Origin: Saprospiraceae bacterium
GTDB lineage: Bacteria; Bacteroidota; Bacteroidia; Chitinophagales; Saprospiraceae
Assembly (NCBI GenBank): GCA_020630775.1
Contig: JAHDIN010000007.1
Coordinates: 17,761-81,760, forward strand
Reading direction: 5' to 3'
DNA length: 64,000 nucleotides
In this document: positions 3,671-26,396 of the stretch, in pieces
Numbering within the stretch: the first letter of the stretch is position 1
Layout: each line of letters opens with the position of its first letter
Notes under the pieces: model-generated
Database searches by the model: none
Told to the model about the DNA's origin: nothing
What the model saw: only the letters and a program-made list of their open reading frames with translations
Made by a program: the position numbers and the translations under genes

Positions 3671-5263
3671 ATGAAAGCCTTATTTATTATTATTCTTTCA
3701 ACTTTGTTTTGTTTTCCACTTACTGCACAAAATAACGATTGGATTATACAAACAAATACGCCATTAGTTCTAAATGACTACAAGAATGCGCATCAAGGCA
3801 TCACGCTTGAGACACTTTGTGAAACACTAAACATTTACCGACTACAACACAACGAAAGCATCACACAAGAGGAAGCGCTTCAACTTCTCCAAATAGAAAG
3901 AAAACTCCAACATATTTCGCCAAATCTGACTTTAGAAAAAAGAATGATTCCAAATGATGCACTTTATACAGATCAGTATCATTTGCGTATGATTGAAATG
4001 GAGAGGGTTTGGCAAGAAACCACAGGCATTAGTCCTGAGCCCGGATTTGAACCAGTTATAGCCTTATTGGATGAAGGCTTCGATTCTAGACATGAGGATT
4101 TCGAAAGTAACATATGGTTGAATGAGGCGGAGATCCCAAATGACGGCATAGATAATGATAACAATACATTTATAGATGACTATAGAGGCATTAATGTTCA
4201 ATTAAAAAATGACGAACATATTCTGGACACGCACGGAACTCAAGTTGCTGGCATCATGTCAGCGAGAGGAAACAATACCATTGGTATTGCTGGCGTGAGT
4301 TGGAATACTAAAATGCTATTGATTAGTGGTGTTACCAATATAGCGGAAATCATTTCTGGATTTGACTACACTTACAATTTAAAGAAGCTGTACATTGATA
4401 GTAATGGACAAAGAGGAGCCAATATTGTTGTCTCTAATTTTTCCGGAGGTCTATCAAGATTTTTCCCTGAGGACTTTCCTGCATGGTGTAGCATGTATGA
4501 CTTAATGGGCTCTGTTGGCATTCTTAGCGTAGGCGCTGTCGCGAATGAAGGTTTTGATGCCTCAATTGTAGGCGACCTACCTACCCTTTGCACTAGTCCA
4601 CATTTGATCACCGTAACTAACAATAATCAAAATGATCAATTGGTTGCCGATGCAGCTTTTAATGCTGAGCATGTAGACATATCTGCACCAGGAGAAAACA
4701 TCATTTCAACTGACATCAATAATACCTATAAAAGTATTACAGGCACAAGCGCTTCTACACCTCAAGTTGCAGCGGTTGCCGCCCTATTGTACACACTTGA
4801 TTGTGAAGACATTGTTGATCTAAGCCAAAATGATCCAGAAAATTTTGCCTTAAGAGTCAAAGATGCGATTATGAAAAGTGTAGATAAAAATAGCAGTTAC
4901 GAACCGACAGTTTCAAAAGGGCGTATCAATGCGTACAATGCACTTTTAGAATTAGCTGATGTTTGCGGACAAGTCGAACAAGGCGCACTTTCCCTTGACA
5001 ATATGTACCCCAATCCTATTCGTAATAGCGAAGATCTTATTATTGAATATACCACTGACAACTCCAATCTACATACGCTTAACATTTTTAATGTCGTTGG
5101 GCAAAGAGTTTATACTGAGAGCTTCACACCTTCGATTTTCTCTTTAAAGCAGATTAGGCTTCCAAGGGGCTTTCAAGAATTAGCGGAAGGTCTTTATTGG
5201 GTAGAAATCAGCAACGAAAATGATAAGAGCGCGAAGAAGCTCATGTTTATGAATTGGAAATAG
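3671..5263 (+). CDS. S8 family serine peptidase (subtilisin-like) with T9SS type A sorting domain
   Basis: ALLDEGFD (Asp), DTHGTQVAGIMSARGNN (His), SITGTSASTPQVAAVAALL (Ser); C-terminal LDNMYPNPIRNSEDLIIEY...GLYWVEISN...KKLMF. Confidence 0.92.
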   Translation: MKALFIIILSTLFCFPLTAQNNDWIIQTNTPLVLNDYKNAHQGITLETLCETLNIYRLQHNESITQEEALQLLQIERKLQHISPNLTLEKRMIPNDALYTDQYHLRMIEMERVWQETTGISPEPGFEPVIALLDEGFDSRHEDFESNIWLNEAEIPNDGIDNDNNTFIDDYRGINVQLKNDEHILDTHGTQVAGIMSARGNNTIGIAGVSWNTKMLLISGVTNIAEIISGFDYTYNLKKLYIDSNGQRGANIVVSNFSGGLSRFFPEDFPAWCSMYDLMGSVGILSVGAVANEGFDASIVGDLPTLCTSPHLITVTNNNQNDQLVADAAFNAEHVDISAPGENIISTDINNTYKSITGTSASTPQVAAVAALLYTLDCEDIVDLSQNDPENFALRVKDAIMKSVDKNSSYEPTVSKGRINAYNALLELADVCGQVEQGALSLDNMYPNPIRNSEDLIIEYTTDNSNLHTLNIFNVVGQRVYTESFTPSIFSLKQIRLPRGFQELAEGLYWVEISNENDKSAKKLMFMNWK

Positions 5264-6804: not shown

Positions 6805-8214
6805 CTACCCCTTCCTCGCATCCAACGCCACTCGAACTTCATTCGCTCTTTCCTCTGAAATCTCATAGTCACGCATCACGAAAATGGCGATCAGTGTACC
6901 GAATATTGGCAATCCTGTAAAGACATATCTTAAACCAGTGATGGCATCAACTTGATCTGCTGCGGCATTGGCAGCATCAAACCCGACAACCGATAGAATG
7001 ATGCCACTTAGTCCTCCAGCTATGGCAAAGCCAAATTTGACCATCCACCAATAAATGGCGCCGAATATGCCTTCTCTTCTTTTACCTGTATTTAATTCAT
7101 CAAGGTCAATAACATCGGCGGTCATGGACATCATTAATGTGAATAAACCACCGATTCCAAATGAAAAGAATGGTAGTGCTATTAAAAAGAGATAAGGCTT
7201 GCCGGGCACAAAAAGCACCAAAAACATTAAGTAACCGATTATCGATACACCCTGAGAAATCAAGAATGTCTTTTTCTTACCCCAAACTTTAGAAAGTCTG
7301 GTAATGATAGGTATTACTATAAACGTTGTAGCTAAGGCACCAACGCAACCAAATAAGGTCGGCCAAATCCCAGCAGCACCAGCATCTCCATTAAACAGAT
7401 AATAGACAATAATAAAAAATGAAAAAGCGGCAACAGTATTGAATGCATTAAATATAAAGAAAGTAGCTATGCACAATTGTCTAAATGCTTTAATTTTAAA
7501 AGCCTCAACAAATGATTTTGCAATTTTTACCAAACTACTCATTGAGTTTGATAAGGATAAGGATTCGTAATCTCTATCTACAGTAGATTCACTTTTAATA
7601 AATATAGCAGGCACCATAGCTAGAATAGCGCAAATCACGCCTACCCAAATAGCCAATTCCCTGGTCGCCGCTTCCGGAGAAGCAAACCATTCTGGATCAT
7701 AGATTATTACCCAGAACCAAGGAGCAATCACCCATGCCCATTGTCCTATCCACTGAGCTACTGCCATAATATTGGTCCTTTCATGGAAGTCGTCACTCAT
7801 CTCATAACCCATAGCTACGTACGGCACACTGAATATGGTCAAGCCGAAGTAAAAGACAAAAGACCAAGCCATGAAATAGGTGAAATTATAATTTACTGTA
7901 TTGTCTTTATACAATTGCCACATCATTACATAGGAAATACCCATGATAATGGCACCTACAAAGACATACTGCCTTCTCCTTCCCCATTTAGATTTAGTAT
8001 TATCAGAAATGAAACCCATAATAGGATCTGTCAAGGCATCAAATACTCTAGGAACAAAAAAGATTAATCCCCACATCCAACCTGGAAATCCTAGGTCTTG
8101 AACTAATACCACCATGAAGATGCCTAAAATAGCTGGGAACATTTGATTGGCCAACATGCCTATACCGAAGGCCACTTTCTGACCAAAAGGAACTGATTTT
8201 GAAGGAGTACTCAT
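6805..8214 (-). CDS. MFS transporter, GPH (glycoside-pentoside-hexuronide:cation symporter) family
   Basis: About 12 TM segments; FVPRVFDALTDPIMGFISDNTKSKWGRRRQYV, ERTNIMAVAQWIGQWAWV, TADVIDLDELNTGKRREGIFGAIYWW typical of GPH symporters. Confidence 0.9.
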   Translation of the reverse strand: MSTPSKSVPFGQKVAFGIGMLANQMFPAILGIFMVVLVQDLGFPGWMWGLIFFVPRVFDALTDPIMGFISDNTKSKWGRRRQYVFVGAIIMGISYVMMWQLYKDNTVNYNFTYFMAWSFVFYFGLTIFSVPYVAMGYEMSDDFHERTNIMAVAQWIGQWAWVIAPWFWVIIYDPEWFASPEAATRELAIWVGVICAILAMVPAIFIKSESTVDRDYESLSLSNSMSSLVKIAKSFVEAFKIKAFRQLCIATFFIFNAFNTVAAFSFFIIVYYLFNGDAGAAGIWPTLFGCVGALATTFIVIPIITRLSKVWGKKKTFLISQGVSIIGYLMFLVLFVPGKPYLFLIALPFFSFGIGGLFTLMMSMTADVIDLDELNTGKRREGIFGAIYWWMVKFGFAIAGGLSGIILSVVGFDAANAAADQVDAITGLRYVFTGLPIFGTLIAIFVMRDYEISEERANEVRVALDARKG

Positions 8215-8481
8215 AAGTTAAATATTAAGCCATTGTTATAGCTTGCAGATTGTAATATAGTAAAATCTGTCAACGTTAACTAGCCCATTCAAAATGAAGA
8301 AATCTGGACCACTCCCTTTAATAAGCGTAAAGTAATGGACAAATAACTCTATCAATGAGCATATTTTGCAAGCCCTTTGACAAAAGTAAGCGATCCAATT
8401 TGGAATGCTGAATTAAGCTTATTACCTATGTAGCAACACTTTAGAAAAGCCTTTTAGAAAACAATCTAACACCCTTTTAAT

Positions 8482-9270
8482 ATGAATAGGAATACCCTTA
8501 TCCTATCGTTATATTCCATCCTATTGTGCATAGCATTTATATGCCCCCCATCTGCAGCGATAGCCCAAGAAAATGACTTTATTATGATTCATGCCCGTGG
8601 AAACACTGGAGAAGAATCTATGCGTCTTATCGTCAATGACGAAGTCATAAAGACTTATAAGAATATCTCTAACAATCAAGAATGTATGACCAAGTACAAG
8701 GTATACATATACGATGAAGTGACTATCAAATCCATCAAAGTCGAGTCTGCAAGCGGATTAGGCTGGCCACATTCCATTTTAGTGGATAAGATTGAAATTA
8801 ACGGGGAAGTCTTCGAAACTGAGTCTGAATTTACACTATCCTACGGTTCTAGAAATAACGGTAATGACTGTGAATCCGGATTTACCAATAGCGAATTCTT
8901 AGATTGTCCCAACAGTTGGTTTGAATACCAAGGGGCGAACGGGATAGTACTCGCTGATGAAGACAATGATAACTCAAACGATCAAACGCTAACAAGTACT
9001 GAAGAAATATATGAAGAAACTGTTCATGAAATAGACATTAACATCTACCCTAATCCCGTAGCAGAAAGATTAAACATTCATTTATCGGAGGTGCATTCTG
9101 AACAAATTGAATTCATTTTGTTTAACAGTAATGGCCAACTGATAGAAACTAATCAGCTAAATAACTTAAAAAACGAAATATTCATTTCTGAGTTGGAATC
9201 AGGCATGTACTTGTACCAGGTGAGAAACAAAAATGAAGTTCTTAAAACAGGTCAACTGATTAAAGTTTGA
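8482..9270 (+). CDS. Secreted CBM60/CBM36-like carbohydrate-binding protein with T9SS type A sorting domain
   Basis: Signal peptide; FIMIHARGNTGEESMRLIVNDEVIKTY...GWPHSILVDKIEINGEVFETE resembles xylan-binding Ca-dependent CBMs; C-term INIYPNPVAERLNI...GMYLYQVRNKNEVLKTGQLIKV. Confidence 0.7.
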   Translation: MNRNTLILSLYSILLCIAFICPPSAAIAQENDFIMIHARGNTGEESMRLIVNDEVIKTYKNISNNQECMTKYKVYIYDEVTIKSIKVESASGLGWPHSILVDKIEINGEVFETESEFTLSYGSRNNGNDCESGFTNSEFLDCPNSWFEYQGANGIVLADEDNDNSNDQTLTSTEEIYEETVHEIDINIYPNPVAERLNIHLSEVHSEQIEFILFNSNGQLIETNQLNNLKNEIFISELESGMYLYQVRNKNEVLKTGQLIKV

Positions 9271-9300
9271 CTTAAAGCCTTTAAATATTGAGAATAAGTT

Positions 9301-9338
9301 AGAGTGGCGATTTATTTTGTCACTCTTTCTTTTTTTAA
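9301..9338 (+). terminator. Possible intrinsic terminator after the CBM-T9SS gene
   Basis: AGAGTG...CACTCT stem followed by TTCTTTTTTT; short stem. Confidence 0.5.
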
Positions 9339-9349
9339 GTAAAACATTA

Positions 9350-9443
<94 letters not shown>

Positions 9444-9479
9444 TTAATTCATGAAGCATTATTCATATAATAATAAATT

Positions 9480-9553
9480 ATTCACTATTAATTGTTCATT
9501 ACTAATTGTCTATTACTAATTATTCATTACTAATTATTCATTACTAATTATTA
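9480..9553 (-). repeat. 7/14-bp tandem repeat ATTCATTACTAATT
   Basis: Read directly; 3' of the GH17-like minus-strand gene. Confidence 0.92.
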
Positions 9554-10854
9554 AGTTTCGGCGGCATAGCCGTCGATTCTATCAAAGCATCATAATCTCC
9601 ATTATATGTTTTTACAATGGATTGCCCACCTCTACTTAATCCTTTAAAGGTGCCAACGTCTACTAAATCCCAAATGGCATACTTAGCCTGACCATCGATT
9701 GTAAATAATCCAAAGTGATTTTCAGAACCTCCAGAGTTTTGTGCGTCTTTCCAGATTTCATCGAAGCCTTCAAAATAAAAGCAACTAATATTTTCTTTAT
9801 TGGTCCACTCACGCATTAAGCGGTAATAAACCCCCTCTTTATATTCATCACAGGCCTTTGTGCCGTCAGGACTATAGAAGCCATTTGATGCACTTGCCCA
9901 ACCTGTCTCACCAATATGAATCGGTACGTTTACACCCAAACTTCTAACAAAATCTTTGGTGGATTGATATTGCGTTTGAGCATGTACTAAAGCGCGCTTC
10001 ATAGCTACTTCAATTAGTTTTTCCTTAGACAAATTCTTATCTGATTCACTTACTCCCCAAAAGGCGCCATTGTAATGTGTATCATGCATAGGGTATGTAT
10101 GCAATGATATAAAGTCCACTGCCTTAATAAGTGCTTTTAGATCGTCAGTATGGTAAGACGCATCGTCACCACCCCAAGATGCAAAATTATCAGAGCTCGT
10201 TATCCATAAATCTTTAGGAAGGTCCCCACGCTCTTTTAAGCCTTGCAAAACATTAACCCACTTTAGTATCACATTAGGTTGGACAAAATAGCTTTGCGCC
10301 CAACGCACCATAGCTTCATTCCCAACTGCAATCACCTTAACAATATCAGGATAAGCTTTTGCCATTTCAACAGCTCGGCCCACCTCACCAGAATTAGCTA
10401 AAAAATCTTCTTCATTATGATTAGGACCTCCTGTCCATGCATTTTCACAATTGATCCAGGCGCCAACCATCATATACATTTCAAAAGAAGGGTTTTCGTT
10501 TTTAAGCTCGCGAATAGCCTTCAAAACATTTCGAGGATGTTCTAATTCGGTTTGATATGTTCTAATGATCCTTATGCCCATAGCATGAAGTAATAACATA
10601 TCCTCTTTTAGCTCTTTTACGGTCGGTTGTACATCCCTTGAGTTGGTCCTGTAACCACCATATGACATAGCTAGATAATTGGGGTTGCCAAGAATATCCT
10701 TTGCAGAAAGTTCTGCAGACGATTTAGACAAGTTGGCTTGAATTGGCTTTTCCTCTTTGTTTTCAGGACTATTCTGACATCCATTTACAAGTGGCAAACT
10801 ACATATCAGCATGAGATTGAAAACTATCTTTATCGAACAGATGATACTTTTCAT
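9544..10854 (-). CDS. GH17-like glycoside hydrolase (putative beta-1,3-glucanase/transglycosylase), lipoprotein
   Basis: Lipobox-like LPLVNGCQNS; LKEDMLLLHAMGIRIIRTYQTE, VIAVGNEAMVRW, FISLHTYPM, IHIGETGWAS, CFYFEGFDEIWK. Confidence 0.82.
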   Translation of the reverse strand: MKSIICSIKIVFNLMLICSLPLVNGCQNSPENKEEKPIQANLSKSSAELSAKDILGNPNYLAMSYGGYRTNSRDVQPTVKELKEDMLLLHAMGIRIIRTYQTELEHPRNVLKAIRELKNENPSFEMYMMVGAWINCENAWTGGPNHNEEDFLANSGEVGRAVEMAKAYPDIVKVIAVGNEAMVRWAQSYFVQPNVILKWVNVLQGLKERGDLPKDLWITSSDNFASWGGDDASYHTDDLKALIKAVDFISLHTYPMHDTHYNGAFWGVSESDKNLSKEKLIEVAMKRALVHAQTQYQSTKDFVRSLGVNVPIHIGETGWASASNGFYSPDGTKACDEYKEGVYYRLMREWTNKENISCFYFEGFDEIWKDAQNSGGSENHFGLFTIDGQAKYAIWDLVDVGTFKGLSRGGQSIVKTYNGDYDALIESTAMPPKLNN

Positions 10855-13800
10855 TTCAGATCTTTTTCGAGAACGACTACATTAATCAAATTATACTTTC
10901 CTGTCCTTGCAAAGATCTCTTGACTTGCCGCTTTATCAATTTTGTTTCCATCAATTAATTTTGGCGTATCTCCAGATTTTGATAGTTTAATTGATCTTGT
11001 ACTCCCCTTTTCAAACACGACAGGGACTTGGCAAATAGTAAAGAACAAGGATCCTGCATTAATTTTTAATTCTTGCAAAGCACCTTTGACATCATAATAT
11101 TTTACTGTATGTGATTTGGTAGAAAACTCGGATTGTCGCAGCAGGTCAGGTTTAAAATGAATTTCACCATTACTTATTTGAAGTCCTAATTCGCCAAACC
11201 TACTCAGTACATCTTCTTTAACTTGTCCAGTCATTCCTGGTTGTTGGGCACCTCTGCCTCCCGGTGTATGAGAATAAGGATCCGTTGGAAAAGCACCATA
11301 TAAGGTTGGTGGCTTATGCACACCTATCCCCGCATTGATTTCGTAATAATGCTCTAATAATCGACCAATACTTTCTGGAGAAGCGGCTTCAGATATAGCT
11401 TTAAGACAACATTCTTGAACCGCTAAAAGTAATTTGGAAACCATATGCCAATAAATTGATCCAAGACCTTCATAGCCAAAGAATGTTCCTGATCGACCAG
11501 TGAACTTCTTATGCTCAAACATATTTTCGAAAGTTTGGAATATTTGATTCTTATCAGCTTGCACGAGTTCCGCATATTGAGATGGTAAGTCTTCAAGTGC
11601 TGCTTCCAAATCATTGGCATTCTTAAAATCACCATTAAAGTGATAGCCTCCAGATACATTCTTTTCTACGATATCTAAGTTGCCCTCTGCAATCAATTTA
11701 CTAAGTAGCGCTGAAGACGTCACCGCAGACGGAGGAATATTATTTTTTTCTAAAAAGCCTGGTAAGTTCTTATTGGGATAAAGGATGTAACTATATTGAT
11801 CATCCCTAAATAAAGCGCTTGCTTTCATAGCATCCAGCAATTCTAGGGTCTCAACGGTAGAAAGCATTCCTGAACTCAATACCGCGACTTGACCTTCTAA
11901 CATCTCATCTAGATACTGTACAGCAATTCCAGAATCACTTGGTGAGATTAAATTATATGCATGATATAGATTATCAGATCGCTTATTGGCTTTTATCGTA
12001 TGTTCAATACTTGCTTGAGCGTGCTTTAAAAAACTCAAGATCGTTTGCATTTCTAAGTATTCTTTATCACCAGAAAATGATTGACGATATATGTTTAATC
12101 GATACTGACTTGCTGCTTGACCAACGCTATCAGTAAACGACTTTCTATCTCCATCACTAATATTACCTTCAATTAATCCACTATAATCCAGATAAGCACT
12201 ATTTAAACTTTGAAACAGATCATACAATTCTTTTGAAATGGCCACTTGAGAAGAGCTTGCATCCTTAAATAAATCTTCAAAGAAGTTTAAAAATCTACGT
12301 ATATAATATACCGTTACCATCGAGACACCATTCCCTACAAGCGCATTGTTTGCATCATTCCACTCTGGCCTCTGTGTATTTAACCAAATACCAGCCTCAG
12401 GTACAAGATTAGACAACTTACTCAAAAGAGTTGCCAATATCTTCTCCACGAAATTAACACGGTGCATATGGCCATCTTTATCTTTTAATAAAGCGCCATC
12501 AGCACCTTCTGTTTCCATGCGACTTCTGATCTCTTTATCTAAGTCAAAATCAAACTCAATGGTATCTTTTGAATTTTTATAAATGTCATCATAAGATTTA
12601 ATCACATAAGGCACATTCGCGTAAACGAAAATATCTTTATTGAAATATTCTTTTAATGTTTGACTATCGAATTTATTGGACACCTCTAAAAGCTTCAAAA
12701 GATAAATAATCTGATGATCTCCCCAATATCCAATGTATGCCCACGGATTGTCATGTTCAATCACTTCCCAATCAAAGCCATCCTTCATTACCCTGTATGG
12801 ATTGTAGCCTTCAAAAGTCGTCGCGTTTAAAAACTTATGAATCATGGCATTTACAAACTCGGGATAGGCATATGATAATGCTTCCCAATTTTGAAAGATA
12901 TCTCGCCAATTACCTTGATAATCATAAATTATAGAACCATCCAATTCATCTTGGCAATTGATATCAAATCTATTCCATGGTCGACTTGGATCACCGTGAC
13001 GACGGCTGAAAGTTAACGGCATATATTCTGAGCAAAGTCGTATAAAATCTGGATCAGAACTCTTTTCGACGAGTACTTTTAATTCAGAAAGAGTAAACGA
13101 TGATCCTAGCGTTTGTAAATCGGACGCATGCGCTAAAGCTACCTTAGGATTCGCCTTTTCTAAATACAGTTTAAAATCATTATAGTCGATATTATAGTTG
13201 TGTGGAAATATGCCACCACGCATAATATTGAACATTGTATTGGAGAAATGCCTTGCATCTCTCCTTTGATCATTTGTATGCTGAAGACCATCAGACGCAG
13301 CAACCAATTCGATTAACTTTTGAGTACCCAATTCAATGTCCTCTGATATCAAGGTAAACAAATCATGATCCTTCTTTAGCAAGTCGATAAGCTCAATTAC
13401 TGAAGCATGATTCTTATTGACATCAGAGACTAAATGCCATTGCTTACTATCATTAGCATTCAATTGTAATTTATGGTTCAGGAAATAAGCGCCCTTTTCT
13501 GCTTTTACATCTGATTCTTGATTTACCAAAGCAGTTTGTCTAAAAGTGTTTAATTGTTGTGAAGAGACTAAATACTTAGGATTTTCTAACCCAAAGCTCC
13601 ATGCTATATTGGCTTTAAGTGATTCCGCTGGTTCCGCTCGATCTACTATGGTAGCACTCAATGCATAAATACCCATACCCACATCTGCAACCAACTCATT
13701 TCTCTTGTACGCGTCTACCAGATTACTTGAACTATTTTGTAGAGCCGCACCTACCTTAGCTGGGATGATATTTTGAATACCATCTAAAATATTTATATCC

Positions 13801-14402
13801 ACCTTTGATGCGCTGTTATTGATCAAAGTAGAAGTTCTCACAAAACCGTATTTGTTTGAAGAGCTCCATCGATATCTAAACGTCAGGTTTAAATCATGAT
13901 TTACTTCCTCGAAGATGACCTTATTCCCATACCAGTTTTTATACACGTGTCTGCTTATGTTGAAAGCCCCCATTTGTGTATTGGATAATGGCTCCCATAA
14001 AACTGTCTTTCCATTATTACTGACATGCATAATTGTTTTTGCACCAGTAATTTCTGCTAGTTCCGTTATTTTATCATCTGTATAATAAGGAAACAATGCT
14101 ATTTCCGAATTTCTTCTTCCTGCTGATAATCCGCCATTACTTGAAATAAACATCCAATGGTTAGCACCACTGACAATACTCATAAAGAATGGACGCATCT
14201 GGTCACAATTCGAAATTTTAAAGAATTGTTCGTCATTGATATCCACACTCTCTAATTGAACATCTTTCGGAATTCCATTGGTTAATTTATCTGCTGCTAG
14301 GACAGTCATCTCGATAATATTTAAAAGTTTTAATACATAAGATTCTATAAAATAATCCGAACTATGATTTAGAAAATCTATTACGATCCTAAATTGCTGC
14401 AA
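10851..14402 (-). CDS. 1183-aa putative carbohydrate-active enzyme (N-terminal beta-sandwich plus (alpha/alpha)6-like region); family unknown to me
   Basis: 4-bp overlap with the GH17-like gene; NPWAYIGYWGDHQIIYLLKLLE, WLNTQRPEWNDANNALVGNG, HTPGGRGAQQPGMTGQVKEDVLSRFGELG are reminiscent of GH94/GH15-like folds. Start may be downstream, at about 14309. Confidence 0.5.
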   Translation of the reverse strand: MQQFRIVIDFLNHSSDYFIESYVLKLLNIIEMTVLAADKLTNGIPKDVQLESVDINDEQFFKISNCDQMRPFFMSIVSGANHWMFISSNGGLSAGRRNSEIALFPYYTDDKITELAEITGAKTIMHVSNNGKTVLWEPLSNTQMGAFNISRHVYKNWYGNKVIFEEVNHDLNLTFRYRWSSSNKYGFVRTSTLINNSASKVDINILDGIQNIIPAKVGAALQNSSSNLVDAYKRNELVADVGMGIYALSATIVDRAEPAESLKANIAWSFGLENPKYLVSSQQLNTFRQTALVNQESDVKAEKGAYFLNHKLQLNANDSKQWHLVSDVNKNHASVIELIDLLKKDHDLFTLISEDIELGTQKLIELVAASDGLQHTNDQRRDARHFSNTMFNIMRGGIFPHNYNIDYNDFKLYLEKANPKVALAHASDLQTLGSSFTLSELKVLVEKSSDPDFIRLCSEYMPLTFSRRHGDPSRPWNRFDINCQDELDGSIIYDYQGNWRDIFQNWEALSYAYPEFVNAMIHKFLNATTFEGYNPYRVMKDGFDWEVIEHDNPWAYIGYWGDHQIIYLLKLLEVSNKFDSQTLKEYFNKDIFVYANVPYVIKSYDDIYKNSKDTIEFDFDLDKEIRSRMETEGADGALLKDKDGHMHRVNFVEKILATLLSKLSNLVPEAGIWLNTQRPEWNDANNALVGNGVSMVTVYYIRRFLNFFEDLFKDASSSQVAISKELYDLFQSLNSAYLDYSGLIEGNISDGDRKSFTDSVGQAASQYRLNIYRQSFSGDKEYLEMQTILSFLKHAQASIEHTIKANKRSDNLYHAYNLISPSDSGIAVQYLDEMLEGQVAVLSSGMLSTVETLELLDAMKASALFRDDQYSYILYPNKNLPGFLEKNNIPPSAVTSSALLSKLIAEGNLDIVEKNVSGGYHFNGDFKNANDLEAALEDLPSQYAELVQADKNQIFQTFENMFEHKKFTGRSGTFFGYEGLGSIYWHMVSKLLLAVQECCLKAISEAASPESIGRLLEHYYEINAGIGVHKPPTLYGAFPTDPYSHTPGGRGAQQPGMTGQVKEDVLSRFGELGLQISNGEIHFKPDLLRQSEFSTKSHTVKYYDVKGALQELKINAGSLFFTICQVPVVFEKGSTRSIKLSKSGDTPKLIDGNKIDKAASQEIFARTGKYNLINVVVLEKDLK

Positions 14403-14595
14403 ATCAGAAGCTTCGCCAACTTAAATTCTCTGACCATAACTGTGCTATGCTTTTCGAATTTAAGTCGCTGATTTATGGCGCTTTAAGATCTCATGACGAA
14501 ATTCTAAGGCATAGTTCGGGTTAATGGAAGCTTAGAAAACTCACGAAAATATTTAAAATTAAGCTTATTGGAAGCGTAATTATTGACAAAATATT

Positions 14596-15879
14596 TTATT
14601 TATCTATTCGAATCTCATTGAATCTTTGGCCCAAGGCTTCAATAGATATATTTGGAGAATAAGGATCAATTGCATGTATGGCTTTCAAAGTGAAATAGGC
14701 TTTTCTTGGCTTTAAACTATACAAGCCATCTGCATCAGTTGGCCCTTTAATACAAATCCCAAACCACTCCTCATTCATATTGTTTTGTCCTTCTACATAA
14801 TCATGATAATATCCGCCATTGGACCAAGACGCATTGTTGTCCTGAACATCAGCACGCTTTCTATTATCAAAATCATACTTCCACCAGCCATCACTAAATT
14901 GAAATGTACAACCACCGATTACATTCTGAGCATTTCTCAAACCACTTACATTTGAGTAGATTTCTTGCCAATTAGACTTTAAAAACTCCGCCTGTGCCAC
15001 TTGGTCTTCTTTCTGCAATATGGCATCATATGCATCTGCGCCAAATTCTGTAAACAGCACGGGCTTTCCATAGACCCTTTTTACCTCATCAAAAAGATTA
15101 CCAAAGGATAGACCTCTATATACATTTGTACCGAAGACATCAACATCTTGGCACTCCTCATTTATAATGTCCAAAAAGAGCAGATCTCCATTACAAATAG
15201 CAACAGGATGATTGGGATCTAGCGCATGTATATTTTGTGCCGCTTTATTCATCAAGCGATACATAGGCCTTGCCCTGCTTTCAGCTATAACTTTATCTAA
15301 TTCAGGCCCCTTAGGAATATTTTCTGTTTCAGCACCAGACCAAAATAGACCATAGTTATTTTCATTCCCCAATAAGTACATGAGTAATCCAGGTGTATCT
15401 TTATACACATTCACTATCGAATCTATCTCAGATAAAAGTATTTGCCCTACCCTTGCATCAGAATATATCGTTGGCTCAACCCATTCATTATCTATCGTTA
15501 AACCATAGCGACCAAAAGCGTGATTAATGATGGTATAGACCCCGTACTGCTCATAGATGTAACGTATCCATTTAGGCGGCATACCTGTGTAAATTCTGAG
15601 GGTATTAACCCTCATATCTTGCAAAAGTTTGAGTTCACGATCCAAACCTTTCTTAATAAGTGCATCTGGCATTTCCCAAAACCTTGCATCTACGGCATTC
15701 TTACCAATAGGGATATAGTCCCAATTCATTCCATTAATAATAAAAGGTTCATCATCTACAAGTAAGATTTGACCAGTATCACTTTGATCCAGCTTAATAG
15801 TGCTGCCTTTTTGTACACACTGAACCAAAATCAGTAGACACAATAACGAGATTAATATAAAAACGAACCTATGCATCAT
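14596..15879 (-). CDS. Glycoside hydrolase, TIM-barrel, GH2-catalytic-domain-like, lipoprotein
   Basis: DEPFIINGMNWDYIPIG..., LLQDMRVNTLRIYTGMPPKW, LLMYLLGNENNYG, VDVFGTNVYRGLSF, PVLFTEFGADAYDA. Confidence 0.7.
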   Translation of the reverse strand: MMHRFVFILISLLCLLILVQCVQKGSTIKLDQSDTGQILLVDDEPFIINGMNWDYIPIGKNAVDARFWEMPDALIKKGLDRELKLLQDMRVNTLRIYTGMPPKWIRYIYEQYGVYTIINHAFGRYGLTIDNEWVEPTIYSDARVGQILLSEIDSIVNVYKDTPGLLMYLLGNENNYGLFWSGAETENIPKGPELDKVIAESRARPMYRLMNKAAQNIHALDPNHPVAICNGDLLFLDIINEECQDVDVFGTNVYRGLSFGNLFDEVKRVYGKPVLFTEFGADAYDAILQKEDQVAQAEFLKSNWQEIYSNVSGLRNAQNVIGGCTFQFSDGWWKYDFDNRKRADVQDNNASWSNGGYYHDYVEGQNNMNEEWFGICIKGPTDADGLYSLKPRKAYFTLKAIHAIDPYSPNISIEALGQRFNEIRIDK

Positions 15880-17486: not shown

Positions 17487-20400
17487 TTGTACGCAATGCA
17501 AGAACAGTTTGAAGCCATACTATCCGACTCTAAATTTCAAAAGAAATTAGCCTTATTGGCTTCTAAACATCAGCTTACAGAAAAAGAAGTAGAGAAACAA
17601 TCTTCGGAGGCGCTCAAAGAATTATACACCTTCCAGCATCCTGTAATTCACAGTTTTGGTGTACAACTAGCAGAATACATCGTTGGTAGAGCCTATGAAA
17701 AAACCATAGATGTCAATATCTCTGAATTTAAAGCTCTAGCTAAGCTTATGCGTCGGCATTCTGTTGCCTTTGTTATGACACACAAAACATACATTGATAT
17801 GTTTGTTTTGGGTATTGCCTTGGCGAGGCATGGACTTAAAATCCCTTTCATTTTTGGCGGCATCAATATGGCTTTTGCAGGATTAGGTCAATTAGGTAGA
17901 CGTGCAGGAGCCATTTTCATAAGAAGGTCTTTTAGAGATGATGAAATATATAAGGCTACCTTAAGACACTTTATCTCTTCTTTGGTTGAAAAGAAAGAAC
18001 ATTTCATGTGGGCCATTGAAGGTACAAGAAGTCGAACAGGAAAGTTGGTGTGGCCTAAAATGGGTATCCTCAAATACATTAGAGAAGCAGAGCAAAATTC
18101 AAATTCTGAGGTAAAGTACATTCCTATTTCAATCGTGTATGATTTGATTCCAGATGTTGAAGATATGACTAAGGAAGGCAGAGGAAAAGTCAAAACAGCA
18201 GAGAGTTTAGGATGGTTTATAAATTATGTTCGAAAGATGGGTGAAAACCACGGTAAGATTTCTATTCGAATTGGAGATCCCGTAGCGTTTTCTAGCACAG
18301 AAAAATCGATTATCCCAGATGACGAAAATAATGACCAACCTTCTATCTCAAAATTTGCATTCGAACTCGCTCACTCTATTAATGACATTACTCCAGTAAC
18401 TACTGCAAGTTTGATTTGTACAGCTCTCCTAAGTAAATTCGCTTTGACAAAAAGAAGTACGGAATCAATCGTCTTGCAATTGATGGATATCATAGAAAGT
18501 CAAAAACCAGATGCATTAGTTGACAAGGGTAAAAACTTGGGTGAATGTATTCAACGGTCGCTCAACATTCTCATTAAGGCGAAAGTGATTCAGTTAGTTG
18601 GTGAAGGTGTTACTGCAAAGTATTCAATTGTACCGGAAAACTTCTTAAAGGCCACTTATTATGCCAATATGGCTACGCATCATCTTTATTTGAGAGCCTT
18701 CATAGAATTGGCTTTAGTAAAGATGATCAATAGTAAATCTGTGCATCCTGAATTACTCTTTTGGGAAGAGGTAATGCATATCAGAGACTTATTTAAGTTT
18801 GAGTTTTTCTATTCCAACAAATCTGAGTTTACGGATCAGATAGAACATCAATTAGACCAAATTGATCCTGAATGGAGAGATATTATAAAAAGCAAAAAAA
18901 GAGATACTAAGACACTACTTGCTAACCAAACTATTTTTATTTCTCAAGTGGTGTTGAAAACATTAATAGAGGCCTATAAAGTGGTTGCGCACTCACTAAA
19001 AAGTCTAGAGCCGGGCCGAACTTACAATGAATCGCAATTACTGCGGACATGTCTGTTTTACGGAGAAGAACTGCATTGGAAAGGAAAAATCCATCGTATA
19101 GAATCCGTCTCAAAACCTTTTATCAAAAATGGCATAAGGCTAGCCAAAAACAGAAACTTAGTTCCTACAGAAAAAAATGAAAAGAAAAAACTGATCGATG
19201 GCTGGCTTGATGAGCTTAATGATCTGACCTTGAGGATGGAACATCTTAATGATTTCACAGAAGAGAATGAAATCTATAAAAGCAAGAAAGACACTGCTAT
19301 AAAACCTATTCCTGGTTCTTACACTAAAGACGTTGTCAAAACAATAATTGATGGTGAGGAAGGCGAGCATATTGCTGCATTTTTTGATTTGGACAGAACG
19401 CTTATCTCTGGTTTTTCCGCTAAACAATTTGTAAAGGCAAGATTGCTCAGCGGTAAAATGACACCGAAGGAAATCGCCATGCAATTTAGTGGCGGATTGG
19501 TCTATGCAGTAGGTAACAAAAACTTTGCAGGATTAGCCGCTATAAGTGCTAAGGGAATTGCCGGTATTACCGAAAGCACCCTCATTGAATTAGGCGAAGA
19601 AGTCTATCTTAAACATTTAGCAGATTTGGTCTATCCACAATCTAGAGCATTGGTTGAAGCGCATATGGCTAAGGGACATACGGTGGCTATTGTATCTGCA
19701 GCAACACCCTATCAAGTCAATCCTGTGGCTAGAGACTTAGGTGTCAAACATATTATGTGCACACAAATGGAAGTCATCGATGGTAAATTTACGGGTCAAG
19801 TTGTTGATCCACCGTGCTGGGGCGAAGGCAAAGCTATTGCTGGATCGACCTTTGCGTCAAAGCATAATATTGATTTAGAGAAAAGCTATTTCTACACAGA
19901 TAGTTTTGAGGATTTACCTTTAATGGATATTGTGGGTCATCCAAGACCTGTTAATCCTGATAAAGAGTTAGCCGCTTACTCTATTGAAAACGATTGGGAC
20001 ATATACAGATTCAATGATAATGGTCGGCCTAATGTCACCAATATTTTCAGAACTGGATTAACATTAACATCGGTAGGTCCAGCTATCATTTCTGGTATCA
20101 CTTCTGGTATTCTAAGTAGAGATTGGAACGAAGGTAAAAACTCAATGATGGCGGTAGTTGGAGATTTAGGTACACGATTAGCAGGTATTAAATTGGTTGT
20201 GAAGGATGAGGAAAATATGTGGAAGTCCAGACCCGCAGTTTTCATCTTCAATCACCAAAGTAATGTTGACCTAATGATCTTAGCAAAATTACTGCGTAAG
20301 AATGCTGTTGGTATTGCTAAGAAAGAATTGGAATATTCTCCTCTAGGTCCAGTCTTCAAGGCCGCAGGCATGATCTTCATAGATAGATCAAACAAAGACA

Positions 20401-20741
20401 AAGCCATCAAGGCTATGGAACCGGCTGTAGAGGCTTTGAAAAATGGAACATCTATTGGCTTAGCACCTGAAGGGACGCGTAGTTACGATTATACTTTAGG
20501 CAAATTTAAGAAAGGTGCTTTTCATTTAGCTATGCAAGCGAAGGTGCCTATCGTACCTATTGTCATCAAAAATGCTCATGATGCGATGCCAAGAGGATCC
20601 AACATTATACGTCCTAGTGTTGTAGAAGTCGCTGTTCTAAAACCTATTCCTACCAAAAATTGGAAACTCAAAGATTTAAACAAGAATATTAAGAAGGTCA
20701 GAGATCTTTATCTTAAAGAGTTGAAGCAAATAGAAAAATAA
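17487..20741 (+). CDS. Three-domain acyltransferase: PlsB-like GPAT + HAD-IB phosphatase + PlsC-like AGPAT
   Basis: LPLAT 1: THKTYIDMF, GAIFIRRSF, EGTRSRTGK; HAD: FFDLDRTLI...AIVSAATPYQVN...YTDSFEDLPLMDIVGHPRPVNPD; LPLAT 2: FNHQSNVDLM, FIDRSN, APEGTRSYDYTLGKFKKGAF. Confidence 0.88.
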   Translation: MYAMQEQFEAILSDSKFQKKLALLASKHQLTEKEVEKQSSEALKELYTFQHPVIHSFGVQLAEYIVGRAYEKTIDVNISEFKALAKLMRRHSVAFVMTHKTYIDMFVLGIALARHGLKIPFIFGGINMAFAGLGQLGRRAGAIFIRRSFRDDEIYKATLRHFISSLVEKKEHFMWAIEGTRSRTGKLVWPKMGILKYIREAEQNSNSEVKYIPISIVYDLIPDVEDMTKEGRGKVKTAESLGWFINYVRKMGENHGKISIRIGDPVAFSSTEKSIIPDDENNDQPSISKFAFELAHSINDITPVTTASLICTALLSKFALTKRSTESIVLQLMDIIESQKPDALVDKGKNLGECIQRSLNILIKAKVIQLVGEGVTAKYSIVPENFLKATYYANMATHHLYLRAFIELALVKMINSKSVHPELLFWEEVMHIRDLFKFEFFYSNKSEFTDQIEHQLDQIDPEWRDIIKSKKRDTKTLLANQTIFISQVVLKTLIEAYKVVAHSLKSLEPGRTYNESQLLRTCLFYGEELHWKGKIHRIESVSKPFIKNGIRLAKNRNLVPTEKNEKKKLIDGWLDELNDLTLRMEHLNDFTEENEIYKSKKDTAIKPIPGSYTKDVVKTIIDGEEGEHIAAFFDLDRTLISGFSAKQFVKARLLSGKMTPKEIAMQFSGGLVYAVGNKNFAGLAAISAKGIAGITESTLIELGEEVYLKHLADLVYPQSRALVEAHMAKGHTVAIVSAATPYQVNPVARDLGVKHIMCTQMEVIDGKFTGQVVDPPCWGEGKAIAGSTFASKHNIDLEKSYFYTDSFEDLPLMDIVGHPRPVNPDKELAAYSIENDWDIYRFNDNGRPNVTNIFRTGLTLTSVGPAIISGITSGILSRDWNEGKNSMMAVVGDLGTRLAGIKLVVKDEENMWKSRPAVFIFNHQSNVDLMILAKLLRKNAVGIAKKELEYSPLGPVFKAAGMIFIDRSNKDKAIKAMEPAVEALKNGTSIGLAPEGTRSYDYTLGKFKKGAFHLAMQAKVPIVPIVIKNAHDAMPRGSNIIRPSVVEVAVLKPIPTKNWKLKDLNKNIKKVRDLYLKELKQIEK

Positions 20742-22604
20742 TTACTTGCCTTCGTAAACTGGCAACTGCTTTAAAATCGAAGCCAGCTTCATCCCTATTT
20801 CAGAATCCCCTTCCATCTTCAATCTTCCTTGAACAAAAGCCATAGCCACATCTAATTTCTTAGCCGCTATCTTGAGCAGGTGCTTCTCTTTAATCTTTAT
20901 GGTAACGTCAGGATTTTTAGCCATCCCTTTTCTAACAGAACCAGGCTTCTTCTGGAGATTTAACTGCCATCCATAAGTTGATTCTCCTTCAACTACAAAT
21001 TGAAATTGGCCAACCGGCTTTCTTAAAAAACCTGGATGATCCTTTAAATGCTTACGCACAAATAAAAAGAAATCATCTCCTGCCGGTTTGGATACTTTTG
21101 AGGTAGTTTTTTTAGATACTCTTTTAGATTTACTTTTGTTCTTAGACGCTTTTTTGCCATTCTTCTGGAAATCTAGGATATCTTTTTCTAGTGCATTGGC
21201 TTCTTCTAAAATTAAATCAGAAAACTTATTCAAGTCCGGCATTGATTTAATATCCGAAGTGGGACTGATCGTAATATTCCCATTATAACTTAACACTGTT
21301 ATAATCAAACCCATGCCATCTATAATAGGCGCCATACCCATTATTGAATGCAATTTATTACCATGTAGATATATAGGCAATTGCGGCCCTGGCACATTGG
21401 TTATCACCACATTAAAGACAGGTTTATGCAACTTCGACAAATTAAATCGACTGTACAACCGAGCCGCTTGATTGGCTATACCGAAAGGCACCGCTTCTGC
21501 TATATTCGACAATGATTTAGCACCCATTGCACCTTGATAGGTTTTTCCTTTAATCGTATTATCATAAATGGTTTCCAATCGCTCAATACGGTCTTCGACA
21601 TCTGTAGCTAACTGAACCAACATAGCGGACAAGTGGTTGCCTCCTTCTACAGACTTGTCTTTCTTAGTTGAAATAGGCACCATAGCCACCAAAGGCGCTT
21701 TAGGTAACTTCTTTTTTTCTTCTAGATATCTCCTTAATGCACCTGCACAAATAGTTAAAATGACATCATTCAACGTTGTGCCCATGATTGTCTTGAGCTT
21801 TTTGACACGCTCTAAAGACAGAATGGTTGTATTCCATTTCCGCTGAGCCGAGATAATCCCATTTAAAGGTGTTTTCGGGGCTGTGAATGGTGCAGTAGGT
21901 AAATCCAGATGCTGAGCTCTTGTTAAAAAGCCTGCTTTTACCGTAGACATGACGGTATTTCTCAGAAGATTCGGAAACTTTAATGGCTTTTGTGCAAAAC
22001 TCATAGCACTCTTCATCATCAAAGCCAATTCATTAGGCATTGGTGCTGGAGTGAATTTTCTAGGTTCAGGAATTTCTTTTACCTCAGGACCTAAGTCAAA
22101 CATGATACCCAAAATGCCTGCCCCGCCAATACCATCTATCGCTACATGATGGATTTTTGAAATGATAGCTACAGATCCCGGTTTTACTTGCGATAGATTG
22201 TCTAATCCTTCAACAAAAGTAAATGACCAAAGAGGTCTAGATTTATCTAAAGGCTCACTGAATATTTTGGAAGCCAATCTCCTTAAGTTTTTCCAATCAC
22301 CAGGCTTAGGCAAGGCAATATGATCGATGTGCATATCAATATTAAACTCTGGATCGTCTACCCAATAAGGATGATCGATACTAAATGGCACCTGCATCAA
22401 TCGCTGTCTCAATTTTGGAATCTGATGAATCCTTGACGCGATTGTTTTTTTAAATGATTGGAAATCTAATGAACCTTCAATTACCGCAACGGATCCAATA
22501 TGCATTGGACTGGTAGGTGTTTCAACATACAAGAAAGTTGAATCCATACCACTAATGGGTTCTATGCCTGATAATTCGAACTGATCGAAAAGTGTTTTTC
22601 TCAA
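20742..22604 (-). CDS. Wax ester synthase/diacylglycerol acyltransferase (WS/DGAT) with C-terminal SCP2 domain
   Basis: GMDSTFLYVETPTSPMHIGSVAVIEG, catalytic HHVAIDG (HHxxxDG), NVPGPQLPIYLHG; C-term GQFQFVVEGESTYGWQLNL...DVTIKIKEKHLLKIAAKKLDVAMAFVQGRLKMEGD. Confidence 0.92.
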   Translation of the reverse strand: MRKTLFDQFELSGIEPISGMDSTFLYVETPTSPMHIGSVAVIEGSLDFQSFKKTIASRIHQIPKLRQRLMQVPFSIDHPYWVDDPEFNIDMHIDHIALPKPGDWKNLRRLASKIFSEPLDKSRPLWSFTFVEGLDNLSQVKPGSVAIISKIHHVAIDGIGGAGILGIMFDLGPEVKEIPEPRKFTPAPMPNELALMMKSAMSFAQKPLKFPNLLRNTVMSTVKAGFLTRAQHLDLPTAPFTAPKTPLNGIISAQRKWNTTILSLERVKKLKTIMGTTLNDVILTICAGALRRYLEEKKKLPKAPLVAMVPISTKKDKSVEGGNHLSAMLVQLATDVEDRIERLETIYDNTIKGKTYQGAMGAKSLSNIAEAVPFGIANQAARLYSRFNLSKLHKPVFNVVITNVPGPQLPIYLHGNKLHSIMGMAPIIDGMGLIITVLSYNGNITISPTSDIKSMPDLNKFSDLILEEANALEKDILDFQKNGKKASKNKSKSKRVSKKTTSKVSKPAGDDFFLFVRKHLKDHPGFLRKPVGQFQFVVEGESTYGWQLNLQKKPGSVRKGMAKNPDVTIKIKEKHLLKIAAKKLDVAMAFVQGRLKMEGDSEIGMKLASILKQLPVYEGK

Positions 22605-22611: not shown

Positions 22612-23409
22612 TTATGCTTTTAAGGGTTCTGGATTGACTAAAAGATCTTCTACTAAGTTTTGTGTTTCAAAATAAGTCCAATCTGACTTATCATGTAACA
22701 ATCTATCATAAATTATTTGAAGCACTAACGGATTAACACCTAATCCTAAATGACTTCCTCTGACCTGAATATTTTGATGCCATTCATCTTCATCTTCAAG
22801 ACATAATTCCCATGGTACGACACCATCCTCTTTCGTATAAATCGCTGTAGTAGGCACAGGAGCAGCATTCGGAATATCGTTTATTAGTTCTTGATCTATA
22901 TCTTCTGTAATAATGCGGCTGCGCTTCAGTAAGTCATACATCCACCTTGCATTATTTGATAATGTAACGCCTCTTACAGGAGAACCCATTACAATAATTT
23001 GTCTAATGATACTTGGATCTTGCTTCGCCAATTGTCTAGCATATATACCACCTAAACTCCAACCTATTATAGTGATTGGTTCACGGTGCCTATCATATAT
23101 ACGCTCTAATTTCTGCGTCAATAAGTCCAAATAAACTGTATGGGCAAAATTCCGACCTTCTCCCCAACCATAAACTTTATAACCGAGTTTATGAATAAAA
23201 GAGCGCAATGGAATAGTAGACATATCAGAGGCCATAAAGCCTGGTAATATTAAAACAGGGTGCCCATCGCCTTTTTCGGCATGCTTTATAAAAAATCTGT
23301 AGGGAAAATACCAACCTAAATCCATCATAGCTCTGATTCCCTCTGTTAATCCTAATGCCAATGATGGTTTCTTAATACTTACTTCGCCACTCATAACTTG
23401 TTGATTCAT
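22612..23409 (-). CDS. Alpha/beta hydrolase (lipase/esterase-like)
   Basis: HPVLILPGFMASD, nucleophile elbow GWSLGG, VMGSPVRG; 7-bp gap to the WS/DGAT gene. Confidence 0.85.
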   Translation of the reverse strand: MNQQVMSGEVSIKKPSLALGLTEGIRAMMDLGWYFPYRFFIKHAEKGDGHPVLILPGFMASDMSTIPLRSFIHKLGYKVYGWGEGRNFAHTVYLDLLTQKLERIYDRHREPITIIGWSLGGIYARQLAKQDPSIIRQIIVMGSPVRGVTLSNNARWMYDLLKRSRIITEDIDQELINDIPNAAPVPTTAIYTKEDGVVPWELCLEDEDEWHQNIQVRGSHLGLGVNPLVLQIIYDRLLHDKSDWTYFETQNLVEDLLVNPEPLKA

Positions 23410-23528: not shown

Positions 23529-23822
23529 TTAGTTACTCACTCTTTCTTTGAACTCTTTTTGACCTCTTACCCATTGCTTTTTCAATGTTTCTAAAGCTTT
23601 GAAAGTGATATCAGCTTGCTTTTCAGCTAATTTAAATCCGCCTTTGATCGCTTTATCAGCTAAGTCTTGCCAAGCAGATGTTCTATCTATAGTCTCATCA
23701 ACAATCATTTCAGTTGTATCGATGAGAAAATTATTAACTGTCTTAGTCGTCGTTTTAAGATTGTCGATAGCTTTTTTAGTATCAACTTTATTCACTCTTT
23801 TTGTTTTTGTTCTCGTTGCCAT
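23529..23822 (-). CDS. Small phasin-like helical protein
   Basis: Amphipathic helical protein (NNFLIDTTEMIVDETIDRTSAWQDLADKAIKGGFKLAEKQADITFKALETLKKQW); similar to the N-terminal half of 23857-24531. Confidence 0.6.
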   Translation of the reverse strand: MATRTKTKRVNKVDTKKAIDNLKTTTKTVNNFLIDTTEMIVDETIDRTSAWQDLADKAIKGGFKLAEKQADITFKALETLKKQWVRGQKEFKERVSN

Positions 23823-23856: not shown

Positions 23857-24531
23857 TTACTTCTTTGCAGATGATCTTCTAGTTGTTTTTTTAGCTGTCG
23901 CCTTTGCTTTTGCAGCTGTTCTTTTTGCAGTTGTATTTGCTTTTCTGCTAGTTGCCTTTACTGTTGTATTAGCTTTCTTCGTTGTCTTAGCAGCTGCTTT
24001 TCTTGTGCTTTTAGCTGTAGATTTTACTTTAGAAACAACTTTTCTGCTTGCTTTCTTAGCTTTTGCTCTAGCTGGCTTAGCTGCTTTTGTCGCTTCTTTT
24101 TTCACTGCCTTTACAACTTCTTGTCCTTTAGCCTTTCCTTTTGCAGCATTTGCCTTGATGACTTCAGTAGCATCTTCCAAACCATCTTCTACTCTATCTG
24201 ATACTCTTTTTACGAACTTACTGAAAGTCTTAGTTGCACTTTTAACTTGCTTCTCAACACCTAAAAGCTTTTGTAATCTTTTGTTGTTTGATTGTACTTG
24301 ATCAACAAACATTTCAACTGTATCAAAAACCATATCTACTTGTTTTTCGATGATTGGTTCTGATTTTTTGATTGCTCCAGCAGCAATCTTTTGGTATTTA
24401 GCACCTGCTGTATAAGTGCCTTCTATTAGATCTTCTGCAATGTCTAAAACACGGCCATTGACTGATTTTACTGATTTCATAACCATGTCTCTGCCTTTGT
24501 TTAATCTTGCTTTTCTTGCTGTAGTTGCCAT
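23857..24531 (-). CDS. Phasin-like protein with histone-H1-like Lys/Ala-rich C-terminal tail (PhaF/MLDS-type architecture)
   Basis: N-term DIAEDLIEGTYTAGAKYQKIAAGAIKKSEPIIEKQVDMVFDTVEMFVDQ; C-term VVKAVKKEATKAAKPARAKAKKASRKVVSKVKSTAKSTRKAAAKTTKK...TARTAAKAKATAKKTTRRSSAKK-type basic repeats. Confidence 0.7.
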   Translation of the reverse strand: MATTARKARLNKGRDMVMKSVKSVNGRVLDIAEDLIEGTYTAGAKYQKIAAGAIKKSEPIIEKQVDMVFDTVEMFVDQVQSNNKRLQKLLGVEKQVKSATKTFSKFVKRVSDRVEDGLEDATEVIKANAAKGKAKGQEVVKAVKKEATKAAKPARAKAKKASRKVVSKVKSTAKSTRKAAAKTTKKANTTVKATSRKANTTAKRTAAKAKATAKKTTRRSSAKK

Positions 24532-25020: not shown

Positions 25021-25090
25021 TTACTACTCTCCTACTCAACCACTTTATCACTTCACCACTTTACCACTTTACCACTTTACCATTCAACCA
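25021..25090 (-). repeat. 8-bp tandem repeat, minus-strand sense GGTAAAGT
   Basis: ccactttatcacttcaccactttaccactttaccactttacc; runs into the stop codon of 25084-25884. Confidence 0.95.
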
Positions 25091-25884
25091 ATAAAAGACT
25101 CAAAAAGGCCCACCGTTTTCGGCAATGGCGCTATCCCAAATTCCTTATCTAAGACATCTACACATCGTTTGTAAGTTCTGATAGCTTGAGGGCGATTGCC
25201 ATTGGCTATATGGGCAGCCATTTGGATACGATAAGCTTCTTCCCAGGTTGGGTCTATGTTGAGGGCTTCTTCTGTTAATCTAATACTTTCGTTGGGTTGT
25301 TCTTCTAGTAATAATTCGGCCAAACTGATATAGGCACCGAGTGTGAATATTTGAATCCGCTCTCGTTCAGTCGTCGTCCAGTCTTCATAGATGCGGTTCG
25401 GCAAGAAAGGGCCTTTGTATAGATTTATTGCCAGTTGAAATGCAATAATGGCAAGTTCATTATTCATTCCTTTTACATGATTCCCTATTTCAATGTAAGA
25501 CTCTAAAGCTTGACTATCTAACCAGATTTTGGACATGTCTAATTTGTAAGTGGCGCCTTGTCGTTGGATAAATCTGGTTTGTCCTCTTGACTTTTTATTA
25601 GGCTCTATTGTTTTATTGATACCATGCAGAGCCACCTTAAACACTTGATCGGAACCCGATTCATCCCACAGCCTGTCTATGATTTGCTCTTTATGTAATG
25701 CTAATCGATTTCTTGAGATCAGAAAAAATTGAAATAACTGGATAGCCTTATCTCTACCCCAGTTGTCTGGTACAGGATTATCATCCAATACCAAGTGGAA
25801 TTGCCCTAATGTAGATACTTTAAGATCGGCTTTATCTTTCGCATCCATTAAAGCTTGAATATGACCATCATCATATTGGATCAA
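25084..25884 (-). CDS. BTAD-domain (SARP/AfsR-like) transcriptional regulator
   Basis: N-term winged-helix-like LKVSTLGQFHLVLDDNPVPDNWGRDKAIQLFQFFLISRNRLALHKEQIIDRLW; C-term TPR/BTAD AYRIQMAAHIANGNRPQAIRTYKRCVDVLDKEFGIAPLPKT. Confidence 0.82.
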   Translation of the reverse strand: MIQYDDGHIQALMDAKDKADLKVSTLGQFHLVLDDNPVPDNWGRDKAIQLFQFFLISRNRLALHKEQIIDRLWDESGSDQVFKVALHGINKTIEPNKKSRGQTRFIQRQGATYKLDMSKIWLDSQALESYIEIGNHVKGMNNELAIIAFQLAINLYKGPFLPNRIYEDWTTTERERIQIFTLGAYISLAELLLEEQPNESIRLTEEALNIDPTWEEAYRIQMAAHIANGNRPQAIRTYKRCVDVLDKEFGIAPLPKTVGLFESFIG

Positions 25885-26396
25885 GACTTCCCTATCTTTT
25901 TATCAATTTTATCAACTTTCTTTTGCAGTTTTTTTAGGACAGCTGTCAAGTCAGATATTTGTTCGGATAATGAATTAAAATCTGATTTAGAGGTAGGCCT
26001 TAAAGACTCTAGATCTAGGCGATTGGTTATTTGCTCTGCTTTTGAACTGATCTGCTCTTGTAATTGAGTAACTTGACCTTTTGGATCTTTAATAGCGTCC
26101 ACAACCAATTTGGGGTAATTGGAAGATAGCTTTTTCCACATATCAAGGCTTTTATTTAGAATACCTTCCTTTTCTTCGTCTGACTTATCATTAGAAATAG
26201 AAGCCAATGTCATTTCTGAAAGTTTGCTTTGAATAAAATCCATAGCCTCCTTTAACTCACTAAAGTTCTTTTGATCATTACCTTGGACATGGCTGATCTT
26301 ACCCCGCCATTGAACATTAGATTCCCCATGCTCATCTTCAAAAATTTTTTGGGTAAATCTTAGGAGAAACGACGCTGTTTGTGATTCTTTAGACAT
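25881..26396 (-). CDS. Hypothetical coiled-coil protein (N-term FLLRFTQKIF..WRGKISHVQG domain; C-term coiled coil)
   Basis: 4-bp overlap with the BTAD gene; coiled-coil LSEQISDLTAVLKKLQKKVDKIDKKIG. Confidence 0.6.
   Translation of the reverse strand: MSKESQTASFLLRFTQKIFEDEHGESNVQWRGKISHVQGNDQKNFSELKEAMDFIQSKLSEMTLASISNDKSDEEKEGILNKSLDMWKKLSSNYPKLVVDAIKDPKGQVTQLQEQISSKAEQITNRLDLESLRPTSKSDFNSLSEQISDLTAVLKKLQKKVDKIDKKIGKS

Follow-up and report, generated by a model that had tools for sequence, protein, structure and literature searches.

One gene in the window (the whole stretch of DNA that was analysed, 64,000 nucleotides) joins a PlsB-type glycerol-3-phosphate acyltransferase (GPAT) domain, a HAD-IB phosphatase-like domain and a PlsC-type 1-acylglycerol-3-phosphate acyltransferase (AGPAT) domain in a single chain, and its product looks like the one-piece front end of a bacterial storage-fat pathway. 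All three domains are complete, their catalytic residues are invariant among homologues, and the gene is linked to and co-occurs with a gene for a WS/DGAT. The reading preferred here, with a probability of roughly 0.55, is that the protein works as a single-chain enzyme in an accessory pathway for storage lipid, probably triacylglycerol, taking glycerol-3-phosphate (G3P) to diacylglycerol (DAG) and thereby feeding the WS/DGAT.

In the proposed scheme, the N-terminal domain would acylate G3P, most likely at sn-1, to give lysophosphatidate (LPA), and the C-terminal domain would add the second chain to give phosphatidate (PA). The HAD-IB domain between the two acyltransferases would most likely take off the phosphate to release DAG, which the WS/DGAT of the convergent neighbour gene would acylate to triacylglycerol. 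Covalent linkage, in place of the co-transcription seen in Actinobacteria, would make the steps stoichiometric, close and apart from membrane phospholipid synthesis. The reactions and their regiochemistry are what we infer, as are the substrate of the HAD and possible channelling; the first two steps (G3P to LPA to PA) are well supported by the domains, and action of the HAD on PA is most likely, given the linkage and the analogy with an actinobacterial operon. The fullest form of the scheme, in which one polypeptide performs the first three steps of the Kennedy pathway, passing the intermediates between its domains and leaving the membrane PA pool untouched, is a tentative proposal with somewhat less than an even chance of being right.

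It has been proposed that the PA phosphatases of bacterial storage fat are HAD domains fused to PlsC (PMC4850399, PMC10351704), and the presence of all three domains, with an intact HAD, on one chain offers a simple test of this phosphatase, with three point mutants and one product assay. For the engineering of DAG or oil production the fusion would offer a compact component, and it points to a group of probable fat storers within Saprospiraceae that has drawn little notice.

Gene and reading frame

The frame at 17487-20741 on the plus strand is open for 1084 codons in the ORF analysis, and its first codon is TTG. Since the alignment with close relatives begins no earlier than residue 4, which is the ATG at 17496, this codon is preferred as the likelier start, which would give a gene at 17496-20741 (+) and a product of 1081 amino acids. 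The first-pass annotation's single GPAT-HAD-AGPAT frame is open throughout, and translation probably does not begin at its TTG (17487). The source genome, a Saprospiraceae MAG, is a draft (54% complete, 84 contigs), which might suggest that assembly or gene calling had created the long frame. This reading can be practically discounted: the same frame of about 1,100 amino acids turns up in over 35 further genomes, spread over many genera and three families, and such recurrence excludes artefact or chance. An AlphaFold2 model of the whole fusion protein, made with four sequences, had a mean pLDDT of 45 and a pTM of 0.31 and was set aside.

Two acyltransferase domains of different kinds

The N-terminal domain (residues 9-596; 17511-19274, +) is matched by GPAT_C of Pfam (PF19277) at residues 227-560, with E=2.2e-61 and 208.5 bits against a cut-off of 25. 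The PlsB2 model of NCBIfam, PRK03355, spans residues 9-596 with 503 bits, below its equivalog cut-off of 721, and its first 186 positions, about 190 N-terminal residues, find no match in the fusion protein. Judged by these models the domain is a PlsB-type GPAT domain and not a PlsB2 equivalog; the low score and the unmatched N-terminal part also count against the full scheme. The structure matches are a PlsB-type GPAT (9vuq) and human GPAT1 (8e4y). The motifs HKTYID (99-104), FIRRS (144-148) and EGTRSRTGK (178-186) supply the HX4D block, the RRS of block II and the EGxRSRxGK of block III, and align with those of 9vuq. These blocks are invariant or nearly so among 36 aligned homologous fusion proteins, in which H99, D104, R146, R147, E178, G179 and R181-K186 do not vary.

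The C-terminal domain (residues 891-1082; 20157-20732, +) is of PlsC type. The acyltransferase family of Pfam matches the fusion protein in two stretches at E=5e-51, and TIGR00530 of NCBIfam covers residues 900-1027 with 133 bits, above its cut-off of 102.95. Its motifs are HQSNVD (923-928), FIDR (964-967), EGTRS (995-999) and FKKGAFH (1007-1013), residues 995-1006 reading EGTRSYDYTLGK; H923, D928, D966, R967 and E995-S999 are invariant in the 36 fusion proteins. The structure match is PlsC 5kym, which comes from Thermotoga (PMC10593935). As the GPAT-type blocks (RRS, EGTRSRTGK) differ from the PlsC-type blocks (FIDR, EGTRS...FKKGAFH), the two domains are acyltransferases of different kinds and did not arise by duplication.

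The arrangement described in the first-pass annotation, with two LPLAT motif sets (HKTYID/EGTRSRTGK in the PlsB-type domain and HQSNVD in the PlsC domain) around a HAD-IB domain bearing DLDRT, is therefore borne out, and the family models together with motif invariance in the 36 homologues agree with its GPAT, HAD-IB and AGPAT assignments. The same annotation had held that a catalytically incompetent domain would count against its reading; the catalytic sets are complete in the HAD and in each of the two LPLAT domains.

The HAD-IB domain and its likely substrate

The middle domain (residues 629-841; 19371-20009, +) is matched by HAD of Pfam (PF12710) at residues 631-813 with E=2e-30 and by TIGR01490 of NCBIfam over residues 630-827 with 169.7 bits, above the cut-off of 98.3. 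DLDRT occupies residues 634-638, all four HAD motifs are present, and D634, D636, S737, K782, D805 and D809 are invariant in the 36 aligned fusion proteins. The mean conservation of the region, 0.78, is the highest of any part of the fusion among the 36 homologues. Between this domain and the AGPAT domain lies a linker (20010-20156, +) with a conserved, moderately hydrophobic helix at residues about 858-876 (hydropathy 1.48; range 1.0-1.9 among homologues), a possible membrane contact.

What the HAD acts upon is central to the proposed pathway. The domain passes only the general TIGR01490 model, falling short of the histidinol-phosphatase HAD-IB equivalog (119.5 bits against a cut-off of 280), and its best solved match, 3fvv, is an uncharacterised HAD of unknown function. 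Soluble phosphomonoesters are known substrates of HADs related to TIGR01490. Land-plant sn-2 GPAT4/6/8 have one acyltransferase domain only, against two in the fusion. They resemble the fusion in combining a phosphatase domain with a glycerolipid acyltransferase on one chain, and with that phosphatase domain they turn LPA into 2-monoacylglycerol, for cutin (PMC5945757). It could accordingly be envisaged that both acyltransferases make PA while the HAD works on LPA, G3P or a soluble phosphomonoester, for flux control, in the manner of the plant enzymes. This is unlikely: if the product were monoacylglycerol, the AGPAT domain of the same chain would be bypassed, and the gene tracks a WS/DGAT, whose glycerolipid substrate is DAG. 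Removal of phosphate from PA is the step favoured here.

The convergent WS/DGAT gene and its neighbours

Immediately downstream, on the opposite strand, lies a gene for a 620-amino-acid WS/DGAT with a C-terminal SCP2 domain (20742-22604, -), identified by PF03007, PF06974, PF02036, synteny and TIGR02946, to which it scores 431.9 bits against a cut-off of 309.95. The stop codons of the two genes abut with zero bases between them (window 20738-20745). Two relatives have overlapping frames, with 10 and 27 bases in common, so that the transcripts of the convergent genes must overlap, and the gaps in 11 loci run from -27 to 107 bases. Among the stretches fetched around 36 fusion genes, 21 contain the WS/DGAT, and it is convergent in 19 of these. 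Across 61 genomes, a WS/DGAT match accompanies the fusion in 11 of 12 carriers as against two of 49 genomes without it (Fisher p=2e-9, a value that ignores shared ancestry). The lone carrier lacking a match has its fusion gene on a 6.8-kb contig, and one of the two genomes with a WS/DGAT and no fusion (G036) has a marginal match. Co-occurrence and synteny together thus uphold the link that had been drawn between the fusion and the convergent WS/DGAT. At seven checked loci of other Bacteroidota WS/DGATs (25-29% identity), neither a HAD-AGPAT or GPAT gene nor the recurrent neighbours of the cluster were found nearby.

Those recurrent neighbours of the fusion and WS/DGAT genes are an alpha/beta hydrolase, two related helical proteins, a BTAD protein and a coiled-coil protein. 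The hydrolase (22612-23409, -), a candidate lipase or esterase with weak alpha/beta hydrolase matches, lies in the vicinity of 22 of the 36 fusion genes. The first helical protein, of 97 amino acids (23529-23822, -), has relatives in the same place and is related to the second, of 224 amino acids (23857-24531, -), which has a Lys/Ala-rich tail and belongs to a conserved family (44-55% identity). By composition only, the 224-amino-acid protein is a candidate lipid-inclusion coat protein; its make-up recalls the TadA/HBHA lipid-inclusion proteins or phasins, and its family matches, to phasin and apolipoprotein models, are weak. The BTAD-domain protein (25084-25884, -; PF03704, E=1e-15), a possible regulator, occurs near 17 of 36 fusion genes. 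The coiled-coil protein of 171 amino acids (25881-26396, -), conserved in 12 loci, is possibly phasin-like, some members of its family matching the Phasin model of Pfam at E=0.014 only. A phasin or TadA identity for the Lys-rich neighbours was set aside, the Pfam matches being weak. Fatty-acyl-CoA reductase (PF07993), considered as a marker to tell wax ester from triacylglycerol, proved uninformative, as it matched every genome and 14 of 14 controls.

Distribution and housekeeping acylation

The nearest named relatives of the fusion are from Saprospiraceae MAGs, with 61-74% identity. About a quarter of the Saprospiraceae genomes sampled (34 of 120) have a GPAT_C domain; 31 of these matches are single frames of 1079-1281 amino acids, and contig ends truncate the remaining three. 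Sampling of the order added seven HAD-AGPAT matches in two related families (f2 and f13), all within frames of 1013-1116 amino acids, and this sample contained no stand-alone HAD-AGPAT lacking a GPAT domain. A sample of 395 further Bacteroidota genomes yielded no GPAT_C, and the search for the fusion outside Bacteroidota covered plasmids. Trees of the two halves of the protein have nine of 33 splits in common, against 0-1 with shuffled labels. This is consistent with the halves having been inherited together, the test being not a strong one.

PlsX (PF02504) and PlsY (PF02660) had no match in any of 37 Saprospiraceae genomes, and 26 of the 37 also gave no match to PlsB/GPAT_C, so that the first acylation of G3P is carried out there by an enzyme other than the recognised ones. 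These absences make the fusion the sole recognised GPAT of its carriers and could be taken to mean that it is their main PA synthase for membrane phospholipids, with the proximity of the WS/DGAT incidental. Such a role is very improbable: most members of the family lack the fusion, which therefore is neither a housekeeping enzyme nor the family's general phospholipid route, the fusion closely tracks the WS/DGAT, and separate PlsC-type proteins are encoded in the same genome. Mycobacterial PlsM is a PlsC-family protein acting on G3P, and by analogy a protein of this kind is one candidate for the housekeeping GPAT of Saprospiraceae. PF19576, tried as the missing enzyme, gave only scattered matches.

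Actinobacterial counterparts

End to end, the fusion matches two separate, neighbouring actinobacterial genes, plsB and HAD-plsC, and as far as alignments can tell it is an end-to-end joining of genes that are adjacent in Actinobacteria. The site of the join is the variable, poorly conserved linker at residues 597-628 (19275-19370, +), about 30 residues long, which aligns to the C-terminus of the separate PlsB and the N-terminus of the separate HAD-PlsC. It had been noted at the outset that Actinobacteria have HAD-AGPAT fusions with PlsB kept separate, and this is correct (PMC4850399). The pairs of Nocardia farcinica (L023) and a Mycobacterium paragordonae plasmid (L022) share 29% (GPAT) and 37% (HAD-AGPAT) identity with the fusion, and the match to the M. 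paragordonae protein runs over 469 residues (614-1079) at 37%, across the HAD-AGPAT boundary. In N. farcinica, plsB precedes HAD-plsC, in the same order as in the fusion, with a 4-base overlap, ATGA.

These actinobacterial proteins are separate and have degenerate or altered HAD motifs, whereas all the motifs are kept in Saprospiraceae. The Nocardia HAD-plsC homologue (L023:7884-9284) has lost them (DLSAV, no DxxxD) and retains its acyltransferase motifs. In the M. paragordonae plasmid protein (L022:5968-7485), Asn replaces the first Asp of HAD motif IV and the acyltransferase motif has a one-residue insertion (HQSTLID); this protein may be impaired.

It follows that HAD activity is not needed everywhere, and both homologues count against the full scheme. 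The Nocardia protein in particular lends some colour to the notion that the HAD is structural or regulatory, without important catalysis, and that the fusion is a GPAT-AGPAT making PA only. For the Saprospiraceae-type proteins this seems quite improbable, given that the HAD catalytic residues are invariant in all 36 and that no other part of the protein is as conserved. A catalytic HAD acting within the chain is preferred.

A close parallel in organisation is the Mycobacterium cluster of Rv2482c (PlsB2), Rv2483c (HAD-PlsC), Rv2484c (triacylglycerol synthase) and Rv2485c (LipQ), in which the same three domains have WS/DGAT and esterase genes as neighbours. There, GPAT and HAD-PlsC are two genes, whereas in Saprospiraceae they form one chain with GPAT first, and the Saprospiraceae WS/DGAT differs in having an SCP2 domain and lying on the opposite strand. 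Rv2483c and Rv2484c have been located on lipid inclusions (PMC10699116), and mycobacterial PlsB2 acylates the sn-1 position of G3P and of LPA (PMC10593935). In the atf9-plsC-plsB operon of Rhodococcus jostii RHA1, PlsC is a predicted HAD-AGPAT fusion and PlsB a separate gene, and it was from this operon that the HAD of HAD-PlsC was proposed as the PA phosphatase of triacylglycerol synthesis (PMC4850399). A later survey repeats the proposal, stating that the function awaits elucidation, and describes Bacteroidota WS/DGATs of 613 +/- 15 amino acids with SCP2 from coastal sediment, beside an AGPAT/hydrolase gene (PMC10351704). Those loci probably belong to the same cluster as the one described here, and in the survey's text a GPAT portion or three-domain fusion goes without mention. 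In targeted searches of openly accessible literature no GPAT-HAD-AGPAT protein, characterised or otherwise, came to light, so that the earlier concern that the architecture might already have been characterised finds no support there. Clustering of HAD-AGPAT, PlsB and WS/DGAT is already known; the single-chain GPAT-HAD-AGPAT is the new form.

Other genes of the window

Use of beta-glucan is suggested by genes elsewhere in the window, at 6805-15879 and 36990-39587. They encode an MFS sugar transporter, a GH3 enzyme, two proteins that are GH17-like and of GH2 TIM-barrel type, respectively, and a 1183-amino-acid protein with no Pfam match. Por_Secre_tail sorting domains, a sign of type IX secretion, are found on a subtilase and on a 1529-amino-acid protein (3671-5263 and 43656-48245).
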